NCBI GenBank assembly: GCA_025677815.1 | Contig: JAIXMP010000006.1 | Location: 186,001-250,000, forward strand | Length of the DNA stretch: 64,000 nucleotides | From: Phascolomyces articulosus | Taxonomy: Eukaryota; Mucoromycota; Mucoromycetes; Mucorales; Lichtheimiaceae | Direction: 5' to 3' | Part shown: piece by piece, positions 4,603-32,814 of the stretch | Position numbering within the stretch: the first letter of the stretch is position 1 | How the letters are laid out: each line of letters starts with the position of its first letter | Notes under the pieces: generated by a model | Told to the model about the DNA's origin: nothing | What the model saw: the letters and a program-made list of their open reading frames with translations, nothing else | Databases searched by the model: none | Program-made: the position numbers and the translations under genes

Positions 4603-4694
4603 AGTATCCCGATTCCTCTTTTTATTTTCTTATTTACTTCACCCATTGACGATAAGTAGAGCAAAAAGAAAAAGAAAAGAGGAATTGGGATACT
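4603..4694. repeat. Imperfect inverted repeat (hairpin) between convergent genes
   Basis: The left arm at about 4603-4628 begins AGTATCCCGATTCCTCTTTT. The right arm at about 4668-4694 is its near-perfect reverse complement ending GGGATACT. The arms match over about 25 bp with a few mismatches, separated by about 40 bases. It lies downstream of the RCH1-like stop and at or beyond the 3' end of the bZIP coding exons, so it would be transcribed in either 3' region. Confidence 0.75.
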
Positions 4695-13083: not shown

Positions 13084-14352
13084 TAGCTTGAATATATACC
13101 TCAATAAATGAGATAAAGATCTGGTACGGATTTTTGTTGCACATTACGAGGCCATTTTACTGCGATAAACAGAAATTTGATCAAATCAGTGTTGCAGGTA
13201 CAAGGTGCCAATCCCAATAAATGTTGCATTAACGTAGAACATTTTCACAGCAGGAGTGGAACAGGCAAGAGTTGATTGAAATAATATAGTAACATATGGT
13301 CCACTTTTTAGTTACAGCGATAATATTATTACTTGAAATGTTATGGAAGCAAAAAAAAAAAAAAAATAAGAACGACTTGTCAACACGCGATAATGGTTCA
13401 AAACCATCAAATAACAAGCACCACCACAAATATTCGTCCTGTACCGAATTTCAATTTGGAATTCTACAACAACAATAATTACTTTCCCACATTTCAGTAA
13501 TGCGAACGTAGGTTCATCAGCTTGTTATCTGGGTAGCAGACATAGAGTATTAGTATTATACTTTGTTACTACTGGATTCAAGATCCTTTATTCGATCCAA
13601 TTTCAACGGCACACCTTAAATAACTTTTTATTGTTCACAGCTTGGTTTCTTTTCTCGCGCCAGCTTACAAGTAAAGATCATCGCCATAGTGGTAACATCA
13701 TATTGCTTGGATACTAGTGGCCATATTATTATTATTGGTGAATTATTATTGGGAGGTTCAGAATTTGAAATATGTGAGAAAAATAGGAGGAAATAATGTC
13801 TTTATCGTTCTAATAATAATAATTCAGTCTTGATACTGTTCTCAGTAGTGCGTAGTAGCACTTATAAAAGCTCAAGGCTTAAGCGTACTGCTGCTGGGGT
13901 AGTTTAGATTACATGATTGTGAAACACCACTATGTTATTTGTAATCATTAGATTTTTAATTATCTTCTTTCTTTAATTTAATACGTCTAAAATGATGACA
14001 ATGATGAACAAGCCTTAGAAAATTCTTGATATTGGCTGCGACATTGTGTTAGCTAAATGTGTTGCAAAATTGACTCTTTGACATTGCTTGAATCAGCCCA
14101 TCTGTGTTTCAAAGAAAAAATAATACCACATATTTGCAGTGTCTTTCAAAACTCGACTATTCCTAACGTGTAGTTGTTGACTTCACCTGGATGTACATCA
14201 AAAGCCCTCCAGATATTGACAAACAATATTATTTATAAAACGTATTAGACTCATTATCGATTTATTCAACAATCAAAGTATTTATTTTGCTGTACTCTGA
14301 GTTGTGATATTTAAAAATGAACATAATAATTATTTATATATATTGTTAATTT
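13084..14352. other. Non-coding part of left arm, downstream of HET gene A
   Basis: No ORF is supported. The sequence is shared with 30766-32055 in inverted orientation, so its conservation reflects the duplication and not function. A short degenerate inverted motif (AGTAGTGCGTAGTAGCACT) sits near 13845. Confidence 0.5.
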
Positions 14353-16008
14353 TTATTGTATCAAAAATGTTTGTTTGGGTAAATTACAATTAGAGGAAAG
14401 CTCTTCATTAATATCTATTCTACAATATCCAATAGCTTTATAGAATTCTTCTCCTTGTTCCTTTTTTATCATGGGATAGTAGCACCCATAAATACTTTTA
14501 AACGAAATTTCAGAAAGGATGACATATTGTGCAGAAGGGTCATCCAAACTGTCTGTTAAATCATAAAAATTAATCATTGCAACACCAGCTTTTGTGTTAC
14601 GCCAGCACAAGTTTTCCTTTTTTATCTCCATGAATCTTGATAATTGTTGAAGGTTTTTAGAGATTTTATCGAAAAATGAATTTCCAACAAAACCCCAAAA
14701 GTCACCAAAACAATCCAAATATATTCTTTTCGTTTTTTTTGCTTTAGATAGTTGAACAATTATGCACAAACGATATTCTCGTTTATCATCACCATCATTG
14801 ATATCGTCAGGGATTGTTGGTATATCTTCTTTCCGTATGGTTAAATTGTCATCGTCGATGGATTGGTTGTTTGTAACATAAGTAGTTGTAACATGCATGG
14901 TTTTTCCAATTATACCGTAATTTTGAAATGACGTCGTTACATCAAGTGTATAGTGTTCACCATTAACACCAGTCCATGATGGCAAAAACTTATATTTTTT
15001 GATTGTCGATTTATAACCAGGATTATACCCAAAAAGCAAAATACTGATGTCTTTTTTTGCTAAGAGACCATAAAATTGGATCATCAAGTCTTCTAATTTT
15101 TGATCGTAATCAATGTTTATTTTGTCGATAAATTCCGGAAAAAGTTGAATGAGAGCAAAAACACGGTCGTGATCTTTGGTGCTTGTTCGTTGATGTGCAT
15201 GGTATAGAATTTGCGAAACATTTAGTTCAGAAGATGATTTTGTTAAATCAGCCATTTTACCCAATATACTATCTCTATACTGATGCCTATCTCTTCCGAC
15301 GAATAACAACCTTTTCGATTTTATTGCTTCTTCTAAAGTCCATGAACGTTTGAAATATTGTTGTTTTCTATCATCTAAATCTTCACCATAAGAGAAATCA
15401 GGTACAAGTGCAACAGTGCAAAAAGCATTTTCGTATATTTGATGCATGTTGCGTATTTCATGGTACTTTTCTTCTTTATTGTCTTGATTGATGCACATTT
15501 GGTCGTACCATATATATTTGATGTTGAATTGTTGACATATATGCTGAATGATGCCTTCAAATTTGACTTGTTTGGTTGTTTTTGTAAAGTAATAGTTATT
15601 ATGCTCCATGATCTCCAAAACGCGATATATTTTTGTCAGTTTACTCCATATTCTAGTAGGAAGATATTTATAGTCACCAGATATTTTGTAATAAGGAATA
15701 ATCATATCAGGAAATATATCGTCATACGGAATAATCTCATGTCTGCCTTCATCAATTCGTTTGTATTTTCCAGTGGTTTCATTGATTAAAATATCTCCAG
15801 ATTGATTCCATGAATACGATAATGCACAGTAACATTCGTTGACTTGAGATCCATCGACTACTTTCATGTCAGAAATACGAACAAGTTTGGTAGGCATAAA
15901 GTCTGTTTTGGGTAATCCATTGGGAATTGATATGGGTGGTTGGGAACGTCTTCTGTATTTCCTTCCGTGAATCGAAGAATATTGCGCCGTCTCATAGGTT
16001 ATATACAT
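14353..16008 (-). CDS. HET-domain protein, copy A (intact)
   Basis: Single open exon, 551 aa from ATG 16008. The open frame extends to 16077 only through a TTG codon, and copy B has its ATG at the equivalent place. HET (heterokaryon incompatibility) signatures are visible: YCALSYSW (60-67), IWYDQMCINQ (166-175) and WTLEEAIKSKRLLFVG (223-238). The HDRVFALIQLFP segment that commonly follows in this family comes after them. The C-terminal half has no family I recognise. In ascomycetes HET domains trigger allorecognition cell death; whether this protein does so is unknown. A conserved GTGAGT...TTAG pair (16096 to 16014) suggests an 83-nt intron just before the ATG, present in copy B as well. Codon use is more AT-rich than in neighbouring housekeeping genes. 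Confidence 0.85.
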   Translation of the reverse strand: MYITYETAQYSSIHGRKYRRRSQPPISIPNGLPKTDFMPTKLVRISDMKVVDGSQVNECYCALSYSWNQSGDILINETTGKYKRIDEGRHEIIPYDDIFPDMIIPYYKISGDYKYLPTRIWSKLTKIYRVLEIMEHNNYYFTKTTKQVKFEGIIQHICQQFNIKYIWYDQMCINQDNKEEKYHEIRNMHQIYENAFCTVALVPDFSYGEDLDDRKQQYFKRSWTLEEAIKSKRLLFVGRDRHQYRDSILGKMADLTKSSSELNVSQILYHAHQRTSTKDHDRVFALIQLFPEFIDKINIDYDQKLEDLMIQFYGLLAKKDISILLFGYNPGYKSTIKKYKFLPSWTGVNGEHYTLDVTTSFQNYGIIGKTMHVTTTYVTNNQSIDDDNLTIRKEDIPTIPDDINDGDDKREYRLCIIVQLSKAKKTKRIYLDCFGDFWGFVGNSFFDKISKNLQQLSRFMEIKKENLCWRNTKAGVAMINFYDLTDSLDDPSAQYVILSEISFKSIYGCYYPMIKKEQGEEFYKAIGYCRIDINEELSSNCNLPKQTFLIQ

Positions 16009-16784
16009 TATTTCTAAGATTACATTAAATAAGTTTGACAAGATAGTTTCAATATAATCGTAGATAATAGAAATCAAAAGACAGGTGTTTACTCACAGAT
16101 AAAAAAGAAACGAATATCCAAAAAATTGCAAGAGAGTATATAGTGATGATGAATTTTAATGGTAGTAAATACGCTTTCTTTTAAGGATTTTCTGTCAAAT
16201 GAGGGGTAGTGATGGAAGTGATAAATAGAAAACGAAAAACGAAAATGCCGTGTTTTTTAGTACGTAGTAAAGAAGAACTGAAAAAAATAATGCTTGATAA
16301 ATATACCTTTTTCTCACTAAAGCTTGTGTGACATATTTCAAGTCGCTAAGCCAAAACTTTAAATATCATCGTCAGCCCATATCATAAATTATATTTGCAT
16401 TTATGTAGACGATTAAGAAAAGAAGGGTTTTTACTACCTGTTACTTTTTTTTCATCGAATCAATTGGAATAATATGAATTCTTCTAATCATACCGTTGAA
16501 TGTTTGATTCACTGCTGCTGAACGACTAGGAAGCAATATGACAAGGACGTAAAAGGTTGTTAGAATAAATGAAAGGAAAAGCCCAGTTCCACGACTTTGC
16601 ACAAAACAGAAACATGGTTACGCAAAGCAATAATATTCTTAACCCAAACTCTAAAATAGACCAAATGAAGACATAACCACTCTAGATATGATACTTAAGA
16701 GTTTATATCATAATTCATCCAGTAAACTTCTGTGGGTGTTAATATAAAGACAACAGCTTGTGCTTGGTATTTGTATTATTTTTT

Positions 16785-16979
16785 TTAAATATGAATACGC
16801 ACGGGAAAAAGAGAAGGATCAGTAAAGTGGAAAACATTTGGTGTAATAGTAGTTATGCAACAGACAAAAGATATTCTTATTAGCGAGTAACCCACTCCAG
16901 GATTTATATACTTTTTAAATGCAGTGTTGTCAAAACACTTAAATGGACCATTATAATCCTGCCCATTGTTTAAACCCAA
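16785..16979 (-). pseudogene. ORF remnant (membrane-protein-like), left-arm copy
   Basis: A 64-codon frame opens with ATT, not ATG. It contains NGPFKCFDNTAFKKY and a hydrophobic stretch ISFVCCITTITPNVF. The right arm has the same protein-like sequence at 28090-28383, but shifted one base within it. Similarity preserved at amino-acid level with broken frames in both copies suggests the decayed remains of a gene upstream of each HET gene. I do not recognise the family. Further hydrophobic coding-like sequence (QAVVFIL) lies beyond the stop. Confidence 0.45.
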
Positions 16980-18099
16980 TAACGAAACGGTCCAGTAAAG
17001 AGCATAATGAGAATATGGCCTTTGTTGTAAGAGTCTTTGCTATTCTATGTTAGACTTAGATATAAACAATGGATATCTATGTTCATTCAGCTATTAGAAA
17101 GCAAAATGAAAAGAAACCTTTGTATTATGACGTAATATGAATAAAAAAAGAATACATTGATACTTGGGGAATATGTATCGCCCACGGTGACAATGGATAA
17201 ACATGTAAGTTTTACTACTACATGTCAAAAAATCTATTTTTCCGGTAGTTATTATATGTAATCAACTTTGCTGCAATGTTTTTTTCTGGTAAAAAGGGAG
17301 GTCACACACACGCTACTCCTTTAGAATATAATAAATGTCATTAATTATAAAATGACCGTTACATCCGACAATAAACCACATTGTTGTTGCTATTGTCAAA
17401 ATGTAAATGATTCAATATCATTGTTCATCGGCGCGTTTTTCTTCAGAAAATTTATATCATGTCACAAGTTCAAAGGGGTTTCCATATTGTCTAGAGTCTA
17501 GAATAAGCGATGACTTACTACGCATATATATTTTTCTTCTCTTTATAATAAAAAAATATCTATAAGCTTAGGTTTTAAGGTAGGCACTGATCTTTACCCA
17601 ATGGCGCATTGCCTCTTTAAGTAATTAAGTATTATTAGAATCGTTTGATGTGGTGATGATGGCCTGTTTATTCAGATGAGGATAAATTTTTTTATGGCCA
17701 ATGATGATGAAACATGAATTTTACCAGACAACATGATTACTGGTATAGAACCGATAACAGACTGATGAATTTTCAGAAAGATTCAGGTAAGTGCTCTTTA
17801 TTTTTCTTTTCCTCTGTCACTTACCATAATCGATGACAATGGTTTATTAACTTTGATGTCATCCCATATGATGCTGATACATATTTCATAGCTTAAAAAA
17901 AGTAGAATAACAACAATGATGAGTAAAAAACTGAAAAATGATAAATTGGTTTATTTTATATTTGTAAAATAGAAGAGTAATTATTTCTATACAACGGAAA
18001 TAATAAGCCTTGGTAGTAGTGGAGTTGTTGTAGTTTACTCATTTTCTACATAATTTGAAAGAAAAAATATAAACATAGTAGTACACTCACAAAAAATCC

Positions 18100-18339
18100 G
18101 ATACCCGAAATCAACTCTGGATACCCATATTCTTCTCGATACCCAAAGCGATCTATTGGACCCCTGATACCCGTTTTCTTTTTTTTTTATCCTCGTTAGC
18201 CAAAGGACACTTTTCATTAATAAATGTATAAAATACACCATGACATATAATATACTGCTATCAAACAATATTATAATTCATTTTGAAACTTTTGTCTTGT
18301 AATTCTGTTTCGATTCAGCATATCACCTACCTGATACCC
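18100..18339. repeat. Cluster of five GATACCC motifs
   Basis: GATACCC starts at 18100, 18120, 18138, 18166 and 18333 on the plus strand, with spacings of 20, 18, 28 and 167. The intervening bases are not clearly conserved. It may be a decayed short tandem repeat or a binding-site cluster. Confidence 0.6.
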
Positions 18340-18902
18340 ATATTTTTTTCCACCCTAGATATGTCATATGGGCCTCTGTTTTTAGTTATACTCCTTTTGT
18401 ATTCAAATATGCTCTATATAAATAGGCAGTGTAATTTTGGATATAAGAGTGATACAAAGGATGAACCAAACTTTCTTTTTATTCCTCAGAAATTATTATC
18501 ACGTAAAATCGAAAGGATAGAATTTATCAGTGGAACGTAAGAATTAATAATGATATATGTACTGTCATCACACCAGACATGTTTGATGTGTATGAAATTG
18601 GGTATGAAGGTATACAGATATATGAAGTTGTAAAACAGATGGATCATCAAGAACTTTAAGAGTGATCGTACAGCTAATATTTCGTTACCAAGCAACCCAG
18701 CCAGCCTTGTGTTTATGACATTTTTTATGATTTATAAACCAATAAACGTAAAAACTGGTACAATTCATAGATGTATTGAAAACAAGAAGTGTGAGTCATT
18801 GTAAGTACATGCAACAAACCGATAAAACCCGCGTTTTCCCGTCGACTATGAAGATGAAGGGATAGCAGAAACAACATAAAAAAAATTCATGCATTCTTGT
18901 TT

Positions 18903-18928
18903 AAATAAACAAATAAACAAATAAACAA
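18903..18928. repeat. AAATAAAC short tandem repeat
   Basis: About three consecutive 8-base units of AAATAAAC in otherwise featureless DNA; a microsatellite. Confidence 0.8.
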
Positions 18929-20339
18929 AACTGTATAACTGTATAAAAGGAACTAAAATTCACCCATTCTCTAAAAGAGGGGTTATATGTTGCATCATTG
19001 TTTACTCTTTGGCAAAGCATTGAAAAATAAAACATGTAAATAGAAATTCTGTTTTACTCTACGATAGTATCTAACTATTCAATAATCCTCCTGGAAATCC
19101 GTAGGAACATAAAAAAAACGAAAATAGTAAATAATCCGTTCCAAGTAAAGAATAATGAATATAATCAGATGCTTTTGTAGCAAATATCATCCATCCCCTT
19201 GTATTTTCACCCATTATTTTATTCCTGGGTGTTTTTATGGTAAATGGAACGGGTTCATTTTCAGTGCATTAAAATTTAAAAAAAAACTCCGTTTTTATTT
19301 TTATTTTATCAAATGTGCCTTCCGAAATAAAATAAAATAAAAAATGACTCTTAAGTTGTTTTTCATTGATGGTTGTGCAAAGCAATCATAAGGGATTGCG
19401 CCATTATTTCATGTTTTCGTCGTACGATGAAAATGAACCCCGGAACAATACAATGACGAATGACTTTATCAGTGGGTTTAAGGGTAGATGATAGATAATA
19501 GATGAAGTACTTTCTATGTATATTCCAATAAAAGGTGTGCGACTTGAATTTAGGAAGTAGTGGTTATATATTAAAACAATAATAATAAATAACTAAATAA
19601 GTTTAAAGTATATCAATTCTAACTGATAATCTCATCGACCTAATGATTATATTATGTTTAGATTCTACAACAATAATCCCAAATGGTAAAAAGACTTGGA
19701 AGTAGATTTTAGGATGATGAACGTAGATCTCCCCTATTTTTTATTAGACTTTTTACTTTAAAAAAACATGATTGGTTCGGAGGCTTACTAATTCGGGAAA
19801 CAATGTATAATTGCGGAGAAAAGAAATGTGCATTAACTGGATGGGATTTCTCTCTCTCTGTTCTCGCACGCGGCACTTTTGAAAGGTTTCACGAGATTAG
19901 GTGAGAATTTTTCACTTTTGGAGTAAGAGAAAAGAAAATAAGGGACTGTTGTAAAAAGAAGTTGTTGTTGTTCCTAGTAGTTTAAAAAGGTAGAAAGTAG
20001 AATGGATAACCTACAAAGTAAATCCTATTTCTATATAATGCATTATCACGTTTTCATTACTATATATAAAAAAATAAAATAAAATTCAATATCATTCCGT
20101 TTTTCTGTAAATAATAATAATAAAAAATGGAGGGGGAGGAGAGGAAAGGGGAAATTGCAATTTTTCCTACTTTAATAATAAGAATTAGTCAATAGTTTAT
20201 TTCACGTAAATAAGCAACAGCGTCATATATTAGTGAATAGGTCTATTAATGAACGAAAATGAATAACGGAAGAAGAGGGTATAATATAAATAGGTTTTAA
20301 ATATCCGGTTTTCGTGTGCAAGTTGGAATTGAGGAACTG

Positions 20340-20698
20340 ACGGTTAACTTTGCCACAAATCATTGATCAGATAATCCAGCTCAAATGGCAAATGACTGGG
20401 CTCCGCGGGAACTTTACCGGACTGACACCTGATTTTCAATAGCGGCTTGAGTAAGAAAAAATCCCAGTTTAACAAAGCGCAAAAATTATTGGCCGGTCGG
20501 GACACCTTCAAACCTTTTTTGGGATGATTTTTTTTAATGTGTGTGTGTGAAGTGAGTTATGTTAGTCCATATCAATACACATTAAAAAAAAAAAAAAACT
20601 TGCCAACCATTTTTTTTTCTTTTCCTCTCTCTCTTTCTTTTCTCACACTAAATCCTTCTTAACCCACCCTTTTCTACTTCTTCCCAATTTATTCAATC
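20340..20698 (+). promoter_or_regulatory. Promoter region of AAT1
   Basis: A comparatively GC-rich block (about 20390-20520: CTCCGCGGGAACTTTACCGG; ATTGGCCGGTCGGGAC, which contains an inverted CCAAT box) is followed by a long pyrimidine tract ending at the ATG at 20699. A T(n)AATGTGTG...ACACATTA(n) inverted repeat lies at about 20527-20595. Function is inferred from position. Confidence 0.5.
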
Positions 20699-22953
20699 AT
20701 GTTGTCCGCTGCTACCCGTGTTGCTGTCAATCCTAGCCGTATGGCTTCGCGTGCTTTCGTCTCCACCTGGAGCAATGTCCCTCAAGGTAAAATTACATAT
20801 ATCAACTTTTTCTCTTTCAATGTTCATGGATATTACGATCCAAAAAAAAAAGATAAAAAAAAACTCTAAATAAAACCGTTTTAAATTTTCCCAGGTCCTC
20901 CCGACGCTATTTTGGGTGTCACCGAAGCCTTCAAGAAGGACACTGACTCAAAGAAAATGAACTTGGGTGTTGGTGCTTACCGTGATGATAATGGCAAGCC
21001 CTATGTCTTGTCCAGTGTCAAGAAGGTAATTATTTTTTTTCAAAATCGTTGGAAATGGAAGAGAGGAGGGGTGATTATATGTGGGGTTGAAAAATCATAC
21101 GAAGCCATTGTAAATACAAGTACCGTTGATTTGATGAATTGGGACGCGTTATTCATATCATCATTATATAATATATAGGCCGAACAAATCCTTTTGGACA
21201 AGGGCCTTGACAAGGAATACGCTGGTATTACTGGTTTGCCCGATTTCACCAAGTCTGCTGGTGAACTCGCTTTCGGTGAAGATAGTGCTTTGCTCAAGGA
21301 CAAGCGTGTATGTTTATTATTATTCCAGATTGGATTAAGATTTTTTTTTATTGTTTCAAATAATTTTTTTTTTTACCAATGCGGCTAACAAAATGAATGT
21401 GGGATAACGTGTTGATAATATAGCTTGCCATTACTCAAAGTATCTCTGGTACTGGTGCTCTTCGTATTGGTGCTGCTTTCTTGAGCAGCTTCTATCCTCA
21501 TGCCAAGAAGGTCTACGTCCCTAACCCTACTTGGGGTAACCATATCCCAATCATGAAGCACTCTGGTCTTGACTTGGAAAAATATACTTACTTTGACAAG
21601 GAAACTAATGGTCTTAACATTAGCGGTATGTTGGAAGATATCAAGGTAACGTATATATTCTTTACTATTACTATTATGATTTATGAAAAAGTGTTTTTTT
21701 TTGGTTTACTAAATGGTTTTTTTTTTACAATTATTATTATAGGGTGCTCCCAAGAACTCCATCTTCCTTCTCCACGCTTGTGCTCACAACCCTACTGGTA
21801 ATGATCTAATTTCTTATATTATTTTGGAAAGAATGAACGAAAGAGTATTTATTAACATAAAAAAATGATTATTTGAAAAATATATAGGTGTTGACCCTAC
21901 TCAACAACAATGGGACGAAATCTCTCAAGTTGTCAAGGTATGGAAATAGATCGGGAATAGGGAAAGATGAGGAGAGATAGATGAGTCCATTGTTAGAGGG
22001 GACAAAAAGGAGGGAGATAGAAAAAAGAAAACAACAACAAAAAAAAAAAGCGAAAGTATATTTTGGAGAATTAACGCGGGGTATAATGATTTATATTTTG
22101 ATCGTTTCAGGAACGTGGTCACTTTGTCTTCTTTGACATGGCCTACCAAGGTTTCGCTTCCGGTGATTGCACTCGCGATGCCTATGCTTTACGCAAGTTT
22201 GTTGATGAAGGTCATAACCTTGTCCTTTCTCAATCCTTTGCAAAGAATATGGGTCTTTATGGTGAACGTGTCGGTGCTTTCTCTGTCGCTTGTGCTGATG
22301 AATCTGAAAAGGCACGTGTCGAATCTCAACTCAAGATTCTTATCCGTCCCATGTACTCTAACCCTCCCATTCACGGTGCTCGTCTCGTAAGCACTGTTCT
22401 TAACACACCTGAACTCAAGAATGAATGGCTTGAAGAAGTCAAGTTCATGGCTGATCGTATCATCAACATGAGGTTTGTATATAATAATAAAAAAATTTTT
22501 TTTTTTGAAAGGTTTCAGTGTCATAGAGACTCACATGTTATTTTTTTTTATTCTTCAGAAACAAACTCCGCGGCCATTTGGAAAATGACTTTGGCTCCAA
22601 GCAAAACTGGGAACATATCACTAACCAGGTGAGTTTAAGCTGACACATAGAATAGCTTATTATTTCTCTTAGTATTTTTATGATGGAGAGTAATAGTTAT
22701 TGATAATGTTACCTACATATACCATAATGGGTTGATTCATGATCGCTAAACTATTTTACTTCCCACCCCACATTTTTTTTTCTTTTAGATTGGTATGTTC
22801 TGTTACTCTGGTTTGACTCCTGAACAAGTCGATCAACTTAAGGATGACTGGCACGTCTACTTGACCCGTGATGGTCGTATCTCCATGGCTGGTATCTCTT
22901 CTCACAACGTCAAGTACCTTGCTGAAGCCATTCACAATGTCACCAAGAACTAA
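20699..22953 (+). CDS. AAT1: Aspartate aminotransferase, mitochondrial
   Basis: Nine exons (20699-20786, 20895-21025, 21179-21307, 21424-21645, 21743-21797, 21888-21937, 22111-22472, 22559-22628, 22789-22953) join in phase to give 423 aa, the usual size. The enzyme interconverts aspartate/2-oxoglutarate and oxaloacetate/glutamate with PLP, and serves the malate-aspartate shuttle. The first 25 or so residues ([20 protein letters not shown]) look like a mitochondrial presequence. Class I aminotransferase motifs are [43 protein letters not shown] and the PLP-lysine site [16 protein letters not shown] (Lys about 270). Codon use is strongly biased toward C-ending codons, as in a highly expressed gene and unlike the HET genes on either side. 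It lies between the two inverted arms. Confidence 0.97.
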
Positions 22954-23492
22954 ATTCTTTAATTCATATTCTTGTTAATTAATTTTCCTTTCAATTTTCT
23001 CGTTATTTTTTTTTAATCTTTTTTTTTTCTCCTTCTGTTTCCATCGTTTTTCTTCTTCCAAACACACTACTTGTATTATATTTTTATTAGAAAACAAAAA
23101 AAAAAAAAAAAGATGCCGCTTTGAATAAAATACCGTTCCTCTACTCTTTATGTCATCATCATCCATCCAAATTTATATATTTTCTTATGGTTGCTCAAAA
23201 GTTTCTTTTTTTATATCTTGTACCTGGATGTACAAGCGTACGATAAGTGAAATGTGGAGAAAGATGTGAACTATGTTTTTTTTCACGTGGCAAAAATAGA
23301 ATAGAATAAAGGATTTCTATATGAATTTTGACTGTATTACCAAATACAAGTCAGTCTGAGATCATTGACATTTTTTCATGTGATATACTTTCTATGCTAA
23401 TTTTTTTTAAAAAAAATAAAAGAGACATGTCTTTTTTTTCACATCCTCTTTTAGAAAACATCATCTCTTTTTAGTTTTTCTATCAAAAAAAA

Positions 23493-25780
23493 ATGTCCAA
23501 GAAGTTTACTGTTGAAGAAGTTGCAAAGCACAACACTGCTGGCGATTGGTAAGAATTCTTCTACATGATGATAACAACACATTATGCACACACTTATCAG
23601 CAAATAATAAATTCTTCCTTCAACTCACTTTCTTTTTTTTTTCTATATGTAAAATAGCTGGGTCATTATTCACGACAAAGTTTACGATGTTACTAATTTC
23701 TTGAACGACCATCCAGGTAACGTATAACAACAACAAAACGACAAACGAATGATGATGAAAATTATAACTGTTTGGTACAACAACAGTATACGATTCAGAA
23801 TGACTAGAAATGAACAAATATGGAAAACTGATTTTATTTATTTATTCATTATCTATCTATTGGAAAATAATTGAATAGGTGGTAAAAAGGTTTTGTTGAA
23901 ACAATCTGGTAAAGATGCTACCAAAAAGTTTGATTCTTTCCACAACCCTTCTGTATTGGAAAAGATTGCTGTAAAGTACCTTATCGGCGAAGTGGGTACT
24001 GGTGAAGAAGAAGCCCAAGAAGATGAAGAACCTGATAGACCTCCTTTCACTGTTGGTGAAACCTTTGGTGAAATGGTTCCCTTTGGTGATCCCATGTGGT
24101 AAAGTTATTAATCTTATGAAAATTTTAAATGCGACGCGGGGAATGGATTTATTTTTTTTTCCTTCACCATGACGCGCACCTCCTCTTCTATCATCTTCTC
24201 CACACACACACACATGTGAAAAGAGATCTTCGGCTAATTTTCGGATCCACGGATATACCTCAATTATAATAGGTACCAAGATTGGTATAGCCCTTACTAC
24301 AACGACTCCCATCGTGCCGTTCGTAAGGCCGTTCGTGAATTCGTTGATAAGGAAATCACACCTTTCTGTCACGAATGGGATGAAGCCAAGAGCATTCCTC
24401 GTGAAGTATTCATCAAGGCCGCCAAGGCTGGTATCCTTGGTGCCATTGGTCACAATATGCCAGATCATTATTATCCTTATGATCTTCCTGCTGGTGTTAA
24501 GCCAAAGGACTTTGATGCCTTCCACCGTATCATTGTCTTTGATGAACTTTCTCGATGTGGTTCCGGTGGTGTCACTTGGGCTCTTTGCGGTGGTTTAGGT
24601 ATTGGTTTGCCTCCCGTCGTCAACTTTGGTTCTGATTATTTGAAGGATAAGGTCGTCAAGGATTGTTTGGCTGGTACCAAGAACATCTGTTTGTGTGTCA
24701 CTGAACCTTCTGGTGGTTCCGATGTTGCTGGTTTGCAAACAGAAGCCAAGGATATGGGCGATCACTTTATCTTGAATGGTGAAAAGAAGGTAAAAGAATA
24801 TATAAACATTCATTTTAAAGCGTTAATGATATGGAAAGGAACTTCATACTAAAAAAAATACTTTGTAATATATAGTGGATTACAAACGGTGTTTACGCTG
24901 ATTACTTCACTGTTGCTTGCCGTACCGGTGAACCTGGTTTCAACGGTATTTCTTTCTTGTTGGTCGAACGTTCCATGCCTGGTGTCACTACCCGTCAAAT
25001 GAACTGCTCTGGTGTTTGGCCATCTGGTACCGCTTATATCACCTTTGAAGATGTCAAGGTTCCCAAGGAAAACTTGATTGGTAAACAAGACCGTGGTTTC
25101 AAGTATATCATGCAGTAAGTATCAGTTATAATCATAAGTAAAAAAAGCGTTAGTAGGATAAATTAATTACATGATAATAACTCGATTTCTTTTTATTTTC
25201 TGTCAATAGCAACTTTAACAGTGAACGTATGGGTATTATTATTCAAGCCAACCGTTTCGCTCGTGTCTGTATCGAAGAATCTCTCAAGGTAAAATTATAA
25301 CTCAATCATACCATCAAAAGGAAAAAATATGTATCTGTTGATAAACTCATCATTTTATTTAAATAAATATCATAGTATGCTCACAAGCGTAAGACCTTTG
25401 GTAAGCGTCTTATCGATCATCCTGTCATCCGTAACAAGCTTGCTCACATGATCCGAAAGTGTGAAGCTACACATGCTTGGTTAGAAACCTTGGCTTATCA
25501 AACCGAAAAGATGCCTGAAGATTTACAACCTATCCGTTTGGGTGGTCCCATTGCTCTTTGCAAAGCCCAAGCTACACGTACCTTTGAATTCTGTGCTCGT
25601 GAAGCCGCTCAAATCTTTGGTGGTTTAGCGTACACTCGTGGTGGTCAAGGTGAAAAGATTGAACGTCTTTACCGTGAAGTCCGTGCTTATGCTATCCCTG
25701 GTGGTTCAGAAGAAATCATGCTTGATTTAGGTGTTCGTATGTCCACCAAGGTGGGTTCCTTCATGGGTGCCAAGTACTAA
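23493..25780 (+). CDS. Cytochrome b5 / acyl-CoA dehydrogenase fusion
   Basis: Seven exons (23493-23548, 23658-23716, 23879-24098, 24273-24789, 24876-25114, 25210-25288, 25376-25780) give 524 aa. Residues 1-80 form a cytochrome b5 domain with the haem ligands in HPGG (37-40) and SFHNP (His about 60). A linker rich in Glu and Pro leads to an acyl-CoA dehydrogenase domain with TEPSGGSD, KKWITNG, the RKTFGKRLIDHP helix and the C-terminal IPGGSEEIM. The position of the usual C-terminal catalytic Glu of MCAD-type enzymes is occupied by Pro/Gly. A Glu-Glu pair (386-387, CIEESLKYAHKRKTFG) lies where long-chain ACADs carry their base, so an LCAD-like arrangement is inferred. It presumably desaturates acyl-CoAs via FAD. 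No clear targeting signal or C-terminal SKL is present. Confidence 0.93.
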
Positions 25781-27451
25781 AAAAAAAAATCTCCCCGTCT
25801 TCCCCTTTTTTTTTCTTCCCTTCCTCCCCGAAATAAAATGTATACATATATCACCCCATCCATCCCATCCGTCATTTTATAAAAACAACAGGAATTTTTG
25901 TCTATAGAAATGTAATTCTTTTTAATGATCATTTATCGCCCCCCTCCATACCAATTTTAAAAAACTCGTATATAATAAACTGTGTTTTGTTTGATTAACT
26001 AATCAATCTGTCTCGAATTGATTCGTCGGCTGGATGGTAAATGAGTAATAAAAGAACTAGCATTATAATAGCTGGATATACAAATGTCACCATCAATGCT
26101 CCATATTAGGTTGGTACAACTATAAAATTTTTGACATTCCGGGTTTTCAGTTAGCATGTGTCACATTTTTATTATTTAACAATGTTGGCTCTCAATAGAA
26201 TATTTAATCCCCTAATTCACGTAGCATTGAATAGGACATGTTTTTTTTTATAAAAGATTACAAAAAGTGGGGTGTTCCATGATAACAAATTGAATTTGTA
26301 AAAAAAAATAGCAATCCAATGTAAACGAGGTTGGTGTTATCATGGGGAGGAGCTGTTTAATTTGAATCTTTCTGCCTTTTGTAAGATATATATAACAAAT
26401 TGCATACTTTGTTACAAAGTAGGTTTTAACAACATGATAAGCTTTTTTTTTGTTTTAAAAATAGAGGTTTAACCATGTCATTTTTTTGACTACCAATATA
26501 AATGTTGCGAGGACTGTGGTTGTAAAAAGTTATGAAGGAAGTTGGGTCTTATAATGCTGCTATATAAACTGAACCTTCAGTGTATGCTGGGGCAAAGAAT
26601 TTGTGGAAGTGGTGAAATCAACGCATCTTGTACTGTTTCATTCTTTTTCTCTGAAGACAGCAATACCTCTGATTTTTTTCTCTTTGGTCTGTGATCAAAT
26701 TTACCAACGTAGCAAGCGTAGTGACTACTCAACACTCGGAGCGCCCACTACGTGTGCAAATTTATCGCTCTCTTAGCGTTGCAGAGACATCAATCTAGTT
26801 GCCCCCTATAGTTTCTTAATTTTGTAATTTATAAAAAAAACGTGGAAAACAAGAAAAAGCTGTTTGTTTTATACATGTTATTGTAATAAAGGGACTCATG
26901 AGTCTTGCTCTATAAAAAAAAAGAGCGTACAAAAAAAGAGATAAGAAAAATATAGCAGGAGTGATGAAGTGAGGAAAAGGATGGAAGAATTAGGTTAAGA
27001 TGAAAAAGAAAAGGTTACCTTAATCCGAGCTCTTGGTTTTACGTAGTAGTTCTAGAGTGTTGATAATATATCAGGTGCTGGACAGTGCTGAGGATAATGC
27101 TCGCACGAAAAGATTATTAATCCTATATAAAATGCCAGTGATTGCACAGGACAGAGTGAATGGTGATGTCTATTAGTATGTTGAGTGTAGGGATAGTTGT
27201 TATCGTTGTGGTGGAAGGTGACAGATTAAATTGTTCTAATTTTCATCCATGATCCAATTGCTTTCATATTTCCGAGATACAGTTTTTCCATACTGCTTGT
27301 TTTGGGACACTGAAAAACAAAACCACGTTGTAGGGATTCTGTACCAGAATAGTATCATTAGAATAAAAGCAAAAGAAAAAACTGTTATTAGATATTGATA
27401 ATTAAGAAAAAAGCCAGTGGGAATAGCCCGACTGGCTTGCAGATGCCCCTG
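25781..27451. other. Gene-poor unique DNA between ACAD gene and right arm
   Basis: About 1.7 kb with no ORF of note and no RNA gene recognised. The left end is the 3' flank of the b5-ACAD gene; the right end carries the hairpin at the inner edge of the right arm. Confidence 0.5.
27411..27438. other. Perfect short hairpin at inner edge of right arm
   Basis: AAGCCAGT (27411-27418) is the exact complement of ACTGGCTT (27431-27438). Inside, GGG (27419-27421) can pair with CCC (27427-27429), giving an 11-bp stem with one bulge. It lies just where similarity to the left arm is lost; the left arm lacks it. Confidence 0.7.
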
Positions 27452-28089
27452 TGCCCCACTGGGTAAAGGTCAGTGTCTACCTCAAAACCTAAGCTTATAG
27501 ATATTTTTTATTATAAAGTAAAGAAGAGAAATATATATGCGTAGTAAGTACAAAGACATCACTTATTCTAGACTCTAGACAATATGAAAACCCTTTTGAA
27601 CTTGTGGCGTTTGTAGATTTTCTGAAGAAAAACGCGCCGATGAAAAATGATATTGTATCATTTACATTTTGACAGTAGCAGCAACCATGCGGTTCTACTG
27701 CCGAATGTAATGGTCATTTTATAATTAATGACATTTATCATATTCTAAAGGAGTAGCATGTGTGTGGTCTCCCTTTTTACCGGAAAAAGACATTGCAGCA
27801 AAGTTGATTACTTATAAGAACTACCAGAAAAATAGATTTTTTGACATATAGTAATAAAACTTACATATTTATCTATTGTCACTATAAACGACACATATTT
27901 TTTAAGTATCATTGTATTGATTTTTTTTATTCATATTACGTCATAATACAAAGGTCCCTTTCTAATAACTGATTGAACATACTCATTGTTTGAATCTAAG
28001 TTTAACATAGAATAACAAAGGTTCTTACAATAAAGGTCATATTCTCATTATGCTCTTTATTGAATTGGTTTCGTTATTGGATTTAAACA

Positions 28090-28383
28090 ATGGACAGGGT
28101 TATAATGGTCCATTTTCAGTGTTTTGACAACAGTGCATTTAAAAAGTATAAAAATCCTAGAGTAAGATACCCAAAAATAACAATATCTTTTGTCTGTTGC
28201 ATAATTGCTACACCAAATGTTTATTACTTTATTGATCCTTCTCTCCCCTTATTTAAGTTAAAAAAATACGAATACCCAGCACAAGCTGTTGTCTTTATAT
28301 TAACATTCACAGAAGTTTACTGGATGAAGTATGGTATGAGAGTTGCTATGTTTTTTTATGGCGGTTTTAGAGTTTGGACTTAG
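28090..28383 (+). pseudogene. ORF remnant (membrane-protein-like), right-arm copy
   Basis: A 97-codon ATG frame contains CFDNSAFKKYKNPRVRY, ISFVCCIIATPNVYY and a second hydrophobic segment, AVVFILTFTEVYWM. It pairs with 16785-16979, but the upstream NNGQGYNGPF part is in another frame here because of a one-base difference. Either it is a small 97-aa membrane protein that survives only in this copy, or both are relics; I favour relics. Confidence 0.4.
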
Positions 28384-29006
28384 AATATTATTGCTTTGTG
28401 TAATCGAGTTTCTGTATTGCACAAAGGCGTGGAGCTGGGCTTTTCCTTTCGTATATTCAAACAACATTTTACTTTCTTATCATATTGTTTCCTAGTCGTT
28501 CAGTAGCAGTAAATCAAACAATCAACGGTATGATTAGAAGAATTTATATTATCAAAGTCGATTTGACGAAAAAAAAAGTGAAGAACAGTAAATACTCTTT
28601 TCTCTACTTAATCGTCCACATATAATCAAGTATAACTATAACTCCACATTTAAAGTTTTGGCTTAGCTACTTGGGATATGTCACACAAGTTTTAGTGAGA
28701 AAAAGGTATATCTATAAAGCGTTCTTTTTTGCTCTTCTTTACTACGTACTAAAAACACAACAGTTTTATTTTTCATTTCTATTTACTACTTCCATTACCA
28801 CCCTTCATTTAACAGAAAATTCTTAAAAGAACGCGTACTTACTACCACTAAAATCTATCACTACTGTATACTCTCTTGCAAATTTTTCAATAGTAACCAT
28901 TCGTTTCTTTTTTAACTGTGAGTAAACACCTCTCTTTATTATCTCTCTTATCTACGATTATATTGAACCTAACTCGTCAAACTTATTTAATGTAATCATA
29001 GAAAAA

Positions 29007-30765
29007 ATGTATATTACCTACGAGACCGCACAATACTCTAGTCTTAACGGCCAAAGATATACATCTGCCAAACGTGTAAAACCACTAAGAATAATCCCCA
29101 ATGATTTACCCAAAACAGACTTTATGCCTACCAAACTTGTTCGTATTTCTGACATGAAAGTAGTCGATGGATCTCAAGTGAACGAAGGTTACTGCGCATT
29201 ATCATATTCATGGAATCAATCTGGAGATATTTTACTTGATGAAAAGACTGGGAAATATAAACGAATTGATGAAGGCAAACACAATATTATTTCTTATGAT
29301 GATATTTATCCTGATATGATTATTCCTTTTTACGAAGCAGTCTACACTGATGATTCAATCAAAATATATCAAGTTCTCGAGATAATGGATGATAATAATT
29401 ACTACTTCACAAAAACAGTTCAATACGTCAAATTTGAAGATATCATTCAGCAAATATGTCAACAATTCAACATCAAATATATATGGTACGATCAATTGTG
29501 CATCAATCAAGACAATAATGAAGAGAAACAACATGAAATACGCAACATGCATCGAATATACGAAAATGCTTATTGCACCGTTGCACTTGTACCTGAATAC
29601 AGTTTTGAAGAACGTTTACGTGCAAACAAACAACAATATTTCAAACGTTTATGGACTTTAGAAGAAGTAGTAAAGTCAAAAAGACTAATATTTGTCGGAA
29701 GAGATGAACATCGATGGGGAGATACTAGCTATTGATATAAGGATAAGGTCGTACGAGAGCGAAGTAGGTCTTTTAACAAAATCATCTTCTGAACTAAAAG
29801 TTTCGCAAATTCTATACCATGCACACCAACGAACAAGTACCAATGAACACGACCGTGCCTTTGCTCTCATCCATCTTTTCCCAGAATTCATTGACCATAA
29901 TGACGAACCTCACCCATTCAAAAAGTTAATTATTCGACATTTTTGTGAACTTTTCTCGACCAAAAATAGTATCAAAAAGATTCGCATCGATTATAGCCAA
30001 CCATTTGAAGACTTGATGATTCAATTTTATGGTCTTTTAGCAAAAAAAGATATCAGCGTTTTGTTTTTTGGAAACTTTAAACATAATTTTGAATCAACAG
30101 TCAAAAAGTACAAGTTTTTGCCATCATGGACCGGTGTTAATGGTGAACACTTAACAGATGATATAACGACCTCATTTAATAATTACGATATAATTGGAAA
30201 AACCATGCATGTTACAACTACTTATGTTACAAACAACCAATCCATCGATGATGAATATTTAACTATACGAGAAGAAGATTTACCACCAATTCCTGACTAT
30301 ATCAAATATGCTCGTTATAAGCAACAATATCATTTGGTTATACTTGTTCAACTATCTAAAGCAAAAGAAATGAAAAGAATCGATTTGGATTTTGGTAGCT
30401 ATTGGCGTAGTAACAAAATATCGTTTTTCAAAAGGTTATCTGAAACGCTTCAAAATCTGTCAAGATTCATGGAGATAAAAAAAGAAAACTTGTGTTGGTG
30501 TATTATAAAAAGTCATGATTTTCGAATGGCTCCAATGATTTCTTTTTACAATTTAACAGACAGTTTGGATGATCCTTCAGCAAAATATATCATCCTTTCT
30601 GAAATTTCGTTTAAAAACATACTTCTTAAAAAATGTTTCTACCCAGTCATAAAAAAAAAGAAAGGAGAAGAATATCATAAAACTATTGGGTGTTTTTCCG
30701 TAATAGGTCCCGAAGATTTTTTCTCTGACTGTAATTTACCTAAACAAACATTTTTGATTCAATAA
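29007..30765 (+). pseudogene. HET-domain gene, copy B (frameshifted)
   Basis: From ATG 29007 an open frame of 242 codons carries the HET motifs (YCALSYSW, IWYDQLCINQ, WTLEEVVKSKRLIFVG) and stops at 29735. The rest of the protein resumes one frame over, open from before 29692 to 30765, and matches copy A to its shared end (LPKQTFLIQ). Compared with copy A the junction has 87 bases where A has 62, a net 25-nt insertion, which explains the shift. No plausible intron restores it. Downstream, copy B also has about 25 extra residues (in frame) after FPEFID. The gene may be dead, or may make only the HET domain. A GTGAGT...ATAG intron (28918-29001) precedes the ATG, as in copy A. Confidence 0.75.
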
Positions 30766-32814
30766 AAATGAACGATTTATATAAATAATAATTTACGTAA
30801 TTAATTAAACTTGTGTTCATTTTTAACATGTCACAACTCAAAATATTACAAACAATATACTTTAATTATGTATTCCATTATTAATGAGTGTGATACGTAT
30901 ATTTAGTAAATAATGTTGTTCGTCAATGACTGGAGGGAGCTCTTGATGCACATCCTAATGAATTCAACAACTACACACGTTGGGAACAGTTAAGTTTTGA
31001 GCTAGCATGCAGATGTGTGGTATGATTTTTTCTTTGAATCATGGATGAACTGATTCAAGCAACACTAAAGAGCCAAATTCACAACACATCCGGTTAACAC
31101 AATGTTGCAGCCAATATCAAGAATTTCCTAAAGCTTGTTCATCATTGCCACCATTTAGACGTATCATAATTAAACAAGGAAGATAATTAAAAATCTAATG
31201 GTTACAAATAGCATAGTGGTGTTTCTCAGTCATGTAACCTAAACTATCTCAGCAGTAGTACGTTTAAGTCTTAAGCTTTTAAAAGTACTACTACGCACTA
31301 CTGAGAACAGTATCAAAAAGGAATTATTATTAGAACGACAAAGATATTTCCCCCTTTTTTCTCACATATTTCAAATTCTGAACCTCCCAATAATAATTCA
31401 CTGGTAAGAATAATATGACCATTAGTATCCAAGCAACATGATGTTACCACTATGGCAATTATCCTCACTTGTAAGCAGGCATGAAATAAGAAACCAAGCT
31501 TTTGAACAATAAATAAGTTACTTAAGGTGTGTCGCTGGAATGGATCGAATAAAGGATCTCGAATCTACGTTGTAGAAATAAAGTATAGTAATCCTCCATG
31601 CCTTCTACCCAGATAACAAGTTGATGAACCTACGTACGTATTACTGAAATGCGGGAAAGTAACTATTGTTGCTGTAGAATTCTAAATTGAAATTCTAAAC
31701 TGAAATTCGGTACAAGACGAATATTTGTGATGATGCTTGGTACTTGATGGATTTGAGCCATTATCGCATGTCAACAAGTCGTTGTTATTTTTTCTTCCAT
31801 AACATTTCAAGTAATAATATTACCACCGTAACTAAAAAGTGGACCATATGTCACTATATCATTACAATCACCCCTGCCTGTCCCACTCCTGTTGTGAAGA
31901 TGTTCTACATTAATACAACATTTACTGGGATTGGCACTTGTAACTGAAACACTGATTTGATCAAATTTCTGTTTATCGCAGTAAAATGGTCTCGTAATGT
32001 GCAACAAAAACCGTACTAGATCTTTATCTCATTTACTGAGGTATATGTGCAAGCTGAATTTTCGATATATATGATTCTAACTAGAGTATCATTGTTATTT
32101 ATTAGTGTTTTTCGGTTTTTTACCTTAATATGGTAATTTAGATTAAATTTATATTTATTACAATGTGGAAGACTGATTTGACCTGCGCCTATAATATGGT
32201 AATTTAGTATGGGTATTGCGTAACTTCAGTTAAGATACGGAATCGTTGTACGTTACTATCTGGCTATACTCCCAAATGCCACAAAACCTTACCTAATGCA
32301 ACATATTTCGAGGAATTGTCAAAGTGCAAAAAACGGGGGTTGACTGTAATAATATGTAAAATTCAACATTGAATTAACTAGTAAGTCTGATACATCACAC
32401 CTATACTTCATTATTAATATATATTACTATGCATATAGCATAATAAAATGTATTTAATATTTGACATCTCTAAATATAGCTTTGTCTCATCAGATTTTCT
32501 CATTTATCATCATCTCTCATCTACATGTCAAAAAAAGGGGATAGGATAATATCATAGTTCAAAAAAATATCGATTTTTATAAATCTATTTATTTTTAAAA
32601 AAAGGAAGTGTCTCTCGTGTTTTTCTTTTAATGCATATAAATTGAGGAATTGGGAAAATCTTTGTTTTTTATAATATAAAAATGTGTGCGGGCGTGTGTG
32701 TAATGTGTCTATAATAGTTAAAAAAAGTACGGGAGAGTGGACAAGATAATAATAGAGAAATGAATGTGAAAAAAAAGACAATATGTTTATGTGAATTGTA
32801 ATAAAATAATATTA
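30766..32814. other. Non-coding DNA: downstream of HET-B, then 3' flank of m-AAA gene
   Basis: Up to about 32055 it is the counterpart of 13084-14352. From 32056 to 32814 the DNA is unique and AT-rich, with a 16-bp direct repeat and no gene. Confidence 0.5.
32126..32207. repeat. 16-bp direct repeat just outside the right arm
   Basis: TAATATGGTAATTTAG occurs exactly at 32126-32141 and again at 32192-32207. Confidence 0.8.

Follow-up and report, generated by a model that had tools for sequence, protein, structure and literature searches.

The two inverted arms that carry HET genes in the DNA described here are decayed members of a family of MITE-HET-MITE units with at least 64 dispersed loci in the genome. 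We consider composite transposition of the whole unit by a pogo-type transposase to be the probable cause of this dispersal. The preliminary description had proposed an inverted segmental duplication, which does not hold, since the arms belong to a dispersed family and are not sisters within it (joined in 0/200 bootstrap trees).

The window, i.e. the whole stretch of 64,000 nucleotides that was analysed, corresponds to C67:186001-250000 in a genome of 47.4 Mb in 110 contigs. It is GC-poor (34.6%), and no tRNA genes were found in it. A BLAST comparison of the window with itself gave two inverted matches, 13085-15115 against 32055-29985 (80.4% identity, E=0) and 15124-17608 against 29895-27452 (80.5% identity, E=0). 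Along both arms the identity outside the HET frames is about that inside them; the arms thus share coding and non-coding DNA, as first described, and their similarity reaches well beyond the HET open reading frames. The length of about 4.5 kb initially given for each arm was too short when the other copies were taken into account, and the features are now placed as follows:

13084..18081, minus strand: arm A, a copy of the HET-carrying unit, delimited by self-BLAST and comparison with other copies
13085..13267, minus strand: remnant of the right MITE of arm A (92% identity with the corresponding part of arm B)
14353..16092, minus strand: HET gene of arm A (PF06985), intronless, 579 aa from stop to stop
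18082..27451, no strand: central segment between the arms, 9.4 kb, containing coding pieces for an aminotransferase and an acyl-CoA dehydrogenase
27452..32348, plus strand: arm B, a copy of the HET-carrying unit, delimited by comparison with other copies
28926..30765, plus strand: HET gene of arm B, frameshifted near 29.7 kb
31870..32348, plus strand: right MITE of arm B, 479 bp, of a family also known as solo copies
32325..32348, minus strand: right terminal inverted repeat (TIR) of arm B, identical in 24/24 bases to the TIR of a resident pogo-type transposon

Both arms have lost the left MITE, together with about 147 bp of the head in arm A and about 640 bp in arm B. Arm A is also without the outer portion of its right MITE. 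The right end of arm B is complete, and the earlier statement that no terminal repeats are visible was wrong for this arm. The central segment encodes pieces of an aminotransferase of class I/II and of an acyl-CoA dehydrogenase; the picture of an accessory block on both sides of ordinary genes was correct. Its supposed uniqueness survives in that the genome holds no second full copy of 18082-27451; short or diverged partial matches do occur, and the length is 9.4 kb rather than about 9.8 kb. A repeat of about 250 bp (18092-18347) adjoins the truncated 5' edge of arm A, and copies or pieces of it, 71-79% identical, are found on C37, C21, C17, C100, C55 and C34. Elsewhere in the window, 4603-4694 is a 92-bp palindromic repeat with a self-complementarity of 77%.

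The HET genes of both arms face outward, in agreement with the preliminary description, and both exceed the curated Pfam cut-off of 22.5 bits, with 54.2 bits for arm A and 60.6 bits for the first piece of arm B. The latter gene is open in two pieces, 28926-29735 and 29689-30765, and the second alone has no match to the HET profile. In arm A, translation likely starts at Met29 (16008); the corresponding MYITYE start is present in the consensus of the alignment of the copies. A Foldseek search of the HET model against the PDB gave no significant matches. The arm A protein itself is absent from the protein database searched, where, among the matches listed, identity reaches 65% for a full-length record and 72% for a partial one. 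The listing covered 120 of 166 proteins; in it, those of other species with a query cover of at least 85% do not exceed 42% identity (Circinella and Zychaea, with Fennellomyces lower still), and one shorter Zychaea match reaches 47%.

The count of at least 64 dispersed loci comes from merged DNA searches with arm A (35 of 218 candidates scored), a 5' part (40 of 87 scored) and a 3' part (40 of 105 scored). The other copies match arm A in pieces that are 74-90% identical, mostly 78-82%. The HET profile had at least 150 matches in the whole genome (150 scored of 245 candidates). Two other HET loci, used as queries, had only pieces shorter than 450 bp in common with the rest of the genome, from which it follows that the arm-type HET subfamily travels with its flanks and that those two do not. 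For alignments and trees we used 31 copies, namely arms A and B and the 29 other best-scoring loci of the arm A search.

Both outer ends could be read in two copies, where the full unit measures about 5.9 kb; one lies at C67:622311 to about 628243, and the other, L011, has a degenerate left TIR. When read in the HET sense, many copies stop sharply on the right at about GGGGGTTGACTGTA, with unrelated DNA beyond. The consensus of 19 right ends, from which L031 and L038 were left out because they have no readable right end, is TACAGTCAACCCCCGCTTTTTGCA and departs from the pogo TIR at 1 of 24 positions; random 24-mers (n=5000, taken in and beside three copies) never had fewer than 9 mismatches to this TIR. 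In single right ends the ungapped mismatches range from 0, as in arm B, to 14, the high values being mostly shifts. The best preserved left ends begin with TACAGTCAACCCCCG, which is the 3' end in reverse complement; the left outer TIR was read in five copies, with degeneracy in two. Both ends of the unit consist of a direct repeat of about 480 bp that is itself bounded by TIRs. MITE sequence or a remnant of it lies directly upstream in 10 of the 11 5' heads that were read, the exception being L051. Arms A and B do not display the bracketing by two MITEs, their left MITE having been lost; both are among the 26 of 31 aligned copies that start past reference position 1 and thus miss their left end. 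The four solo MITEs that we fetched, on C80, C78, C16 and C28, were chosen from contigs without a listed HET match, and none of the four has DNA of the HET unit beside it.

Two properties of these ends bear on how the block moved. First, the inner TIR of the left MITE is altered identically in 9/9 readable junctions (GAATG for GACTG), which suggests a single founder; judged by position, several copies still have a recognisable inner TIR in their right MITE. Second, the flanks are mostly distinct. The right flanks fall into 16 groups among 19 ends and the left flanks are distinct in 5/5 cases, so that the unit sits at many independent sites; the three pairs of right ends with similar flanks imply that part of the spread was by larger duplication. 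The shared altered inner TIR and the distinct flanks support the view that the block would move as one unit, while the several types of right MITE leave room for recombination. TA, described in excerpts of the literature as the target of Tc1/mariner elements (PMC7325037), was found at 13/19 right ends and 3/5 left ends, and at both ends of the C67 copy beginning at 622311.

A transposase-bearing partner with the same TIR is present in the genome. The TIR pattern, with up to 2 mismatches allowed, occurs at 137 sites vs 4 for a reversed control. There are 15 DDE_1 matches, each of them a candidate transposase by sequence; among eight such loci that were fetched, five have the TIR at both ends (up to 3 mismatches), one at one end and two at neither. 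Four of the eight are 2.4 kb long and 98-99% alike. Pieces of one pogo element match HTH_Tnp_Tc5 and DDE_1, its several frame pieces being taken as putative exons. The TIRs are common to the HET family and to this transposase-bearing element, with the proviso that arm A has lost both its ends and arm B the left one. The mover would have been the resident pogo transposase or an older relative; since the pogo copies are 98-99% alike and the HET units only about 80%, the former are much younger and cannot be the actual movers, and we assume the older relative. At L066 a pogo-type transposon (C35:542721-545171) lies about 140 bp from a copy of the HET unit (C35:545312 on).

We propose that the unit is a non-autonomous, composite element resembling a DNA transposon, in which an intronless HET gene, with its own 5' and 3' flanking DNA, would lie between two directly oriented MITEs of the pogo family, each of about 480 bp. 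In the founder, the inner TIR of the left MITE would already have been mutated, and the block would have been mobilised whole, with the two outer TIRs as its limits and at sites ending in TA, by a pogo-type transposase acting in trans. The spread would have been a burst, mostly over a few contigs, after which the copies would have diverged and lost ends. Chance would account for the opposite orientations of the two copies in the window, which flank two metabolic genes.

Several observations weigh against this composite transposition. The left end is missing in most copies, TA is incomplete, three pairs of flanks are shared, three of the eight transposase loci lack a TIR pair, the right inner TIR is recognisable in several copies, and only two copies could be read at both outer ends, L011 with its degenerate left TIR being one of them. 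The youth of the pogo elements and the status of the DDE_1 matches as candidate transposases only would count on the same side. Moreover, the right MITEs are of several sequence types, some closer to left MITEs than to most right ones, as an exchange of ends between MITEs would give. The main rival builds on such exchange: pogo transposase scatters the MITEs, and homologous recombination between direct MITEs frees circles with the HET gene and one MITE, which reintegrate into, or convert, resident MITEs elsewhere. The existence of solo MITEs and the mixture of right-MITE types speak for it, as does a PHI-like test on 22 copies, which indicates recombination among them (p about 0.001). The altered inner TIR in all readable left junctions and the mostly distinct flanks are the points against it; both fit MITE-mediated recombination too, and the evidence is not decisive. 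As a consequence of the missing left ends (26/31), the partial TA and the mixed right MITEs, we hold that such recombination took part in the spread and was maybe its main route, even if as a full explanation we find it rather unlikely.

The placement of the copies is far from even. Six contigs (C67, C35, C47, C60, C83, C74), perhaps one chromosome, make up 6.4% of the genome and hold 50/64 loci, and C67 alone has 26 loci vs 2.3 expected. Such crowding would suit a model without transposition, in which HET blocks multiplied by segmental duplications or unequal exchange, repeatedly and mostly within a chromosome; so would the often ragged ends and the three pairs among the 19 right ends whose flanks are shared beyond the unit. 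We regard this explanation as improbable, because the 19 right ends stop at or near the TIR, with 16 kinds of flank, and because neither one C47 intergenic piece nor the central segment of the window is duplicated with the copies. On C47 the copies lie at 82.7, 105, 128.8, 150, 176.7, 198.2, 217.6 and 261.5 kb, a strikingly even spacing of 19-27 kb, the last interval excepted. A larger tandem block behind this spacing of about 22 kb was considered and dropped, as the one 4 kb intergenic piece tried was not duplicated. L029 contains, in the HET sense, a perfect 306-bp inverted repeat (1-306 and 1150-1455) adjoining its unit copy, perhaps a young foldback element.

The tree of the 31 copies is star-like, with long end branches (median 0.13) and mostly short inner ones, and the family looks like an old burst. 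Arm A groups with L034 on C35 (support 98/99) and arm B weakly with L023. A local inverted duplication, in which arm B arose from arm A or the reverse, would be suggested by the two inverted arms only 9.4 kb apart, by the 92% identity of their inner right-MITE parts (13085-13267 against about 31875-32055, where the mean of the arms is 80%), and by the fifth rank that arm B gives arm A among 30 copies. The identities contradict it, arm A being closer to L012 (0.856) than to arm B (0.829) and ranking the latter 15th of 30 (B-L012, 0.838); by ranks and tree alike, the arms are not each other's closest copies. With the sister relation found in no bootstrap tree, the simple form of this idea is refuted and we give the remainder hardly any credence. 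The high identity of the right-MITE parts may possibly reflect local gene conversion between the arms. Retroposition, considered on account of the sharp 3' end, the variable 5' end and the lack of an intron, LTR-like direct repeats and Helitron ends were all dropped in view of the inverted repeats at both ends, and no poly-A was seen at the right ends examined.

We then considered the cargo. A single open HET frame is found in 22/31 copies and is broken in nine, arm B included; since the 31 are the best-scoring loci, this share may exceed that of all 64, and in one of the open copies, L026, the match ends at residue 546 of 579. In a crude simulation of neutral frames that took its substitution level from the end branches, 0/2000 frames survived, and at 0.05 per site survival was below 1% before indels were counted. 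The dN/dS ratio of the 22 open copies is 0.57 (0.49-0.66); the HET core has 0.43 and residues 381-579 have 0.75, and windows above 1, picked post hoc, lie near 420-479 and, in one case, at 267-296. Short indels in all 31 copies are multiples of three in 88.9% of cases in the HET gene and in 22% and 32% in the flanks; a figure of 97% is conditioned on open frames, and the former was used. Taken together, frame retention, dN/dS and the indel pattern indicate that the HET genes are in use, or were until lately, and many of them have stayed under purifying selection. No second gene was apparent in the unit: outside the HET region, stop-to-stop frames in the 31 copies reach 129 aa at most. The HET protein would probably function in cell death. 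As first suggested, the paired HET genes might act in allorecognition, and recombination between the arms might invert the central segment. We speculate, as a tentative and rather doubtful extension, that the HET gene is no passenger but a payload responsible for the spread or persistence of the unit. On this view a composite pogo element would carry a TIR-domain-like protein for cell death or defence, and transposition, recombination and rapid change around residues 420-479 would have diversified it into a transposon-built immune repertoire.

Fungi differ greatly in their number of HET genes, and the driver of HET diversification has been called an open question (PMC10197012); the origin of HET genes in the Mucorales genus Lichtheimia has been called unclear (PMC4133162). 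A HET subfamily spread as a transposon-like unit, with genes under selection, offers a concrete and testable route to a HET repertoire. If the payload reading were true, this fungus would possess a transposon-built immune repertoire in dozens of copies. Gene sets may miss such families, as the arm A protein was absent from the database searched. Among the titles listed in literature searches that covered few subscription journals, none described HET genes on pogo MITEs.

The unit resembles pogo/Fot1-type Tc1/mariner elements and their MITEs in that its TIR is of the CAGTCAAC type and flanked by TA, in that solo MITEs occur, and in that the genome also contains pieces of a transposase with HTH_Tnp_Tc5 and DDE_1. 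It differs from them in its size of about 5.9 kb, without a transposase frame, and in the selected HET gene between two MITEs. In bacterial composite transposons and in Pack-TYPE elements, a host-type gene lies between transposon ends and is amplified as a block, as in the HET unit; the latter, however, is eukaryotic, has two direct MITEs and keeps its cargo frame open in 22/31 copies. Starships are giant fungal mobile elements with cargo, and the HET unit is likewise a putative mobile element with a possible immunity cargo, but it is small, has pogo-type ends and shows no long frame beside HET, although introns could conceal a Starship captain. Finally, large HET repertoires are found elsewhere in the order Mucorales: 52 HET proteins are given for Lichtheimia corymbifera (PMC4133162) and an expansion of HET-domain genes for Apophysomyces (PMC5604411), and it is discussed there whether HET genes might explain a low transposon content (PMC4133162, PMC5604411). 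Those papers relate HET expansion to a low transposon content, whereas here one HET subfamily itself spreads in the manner of a transposon.
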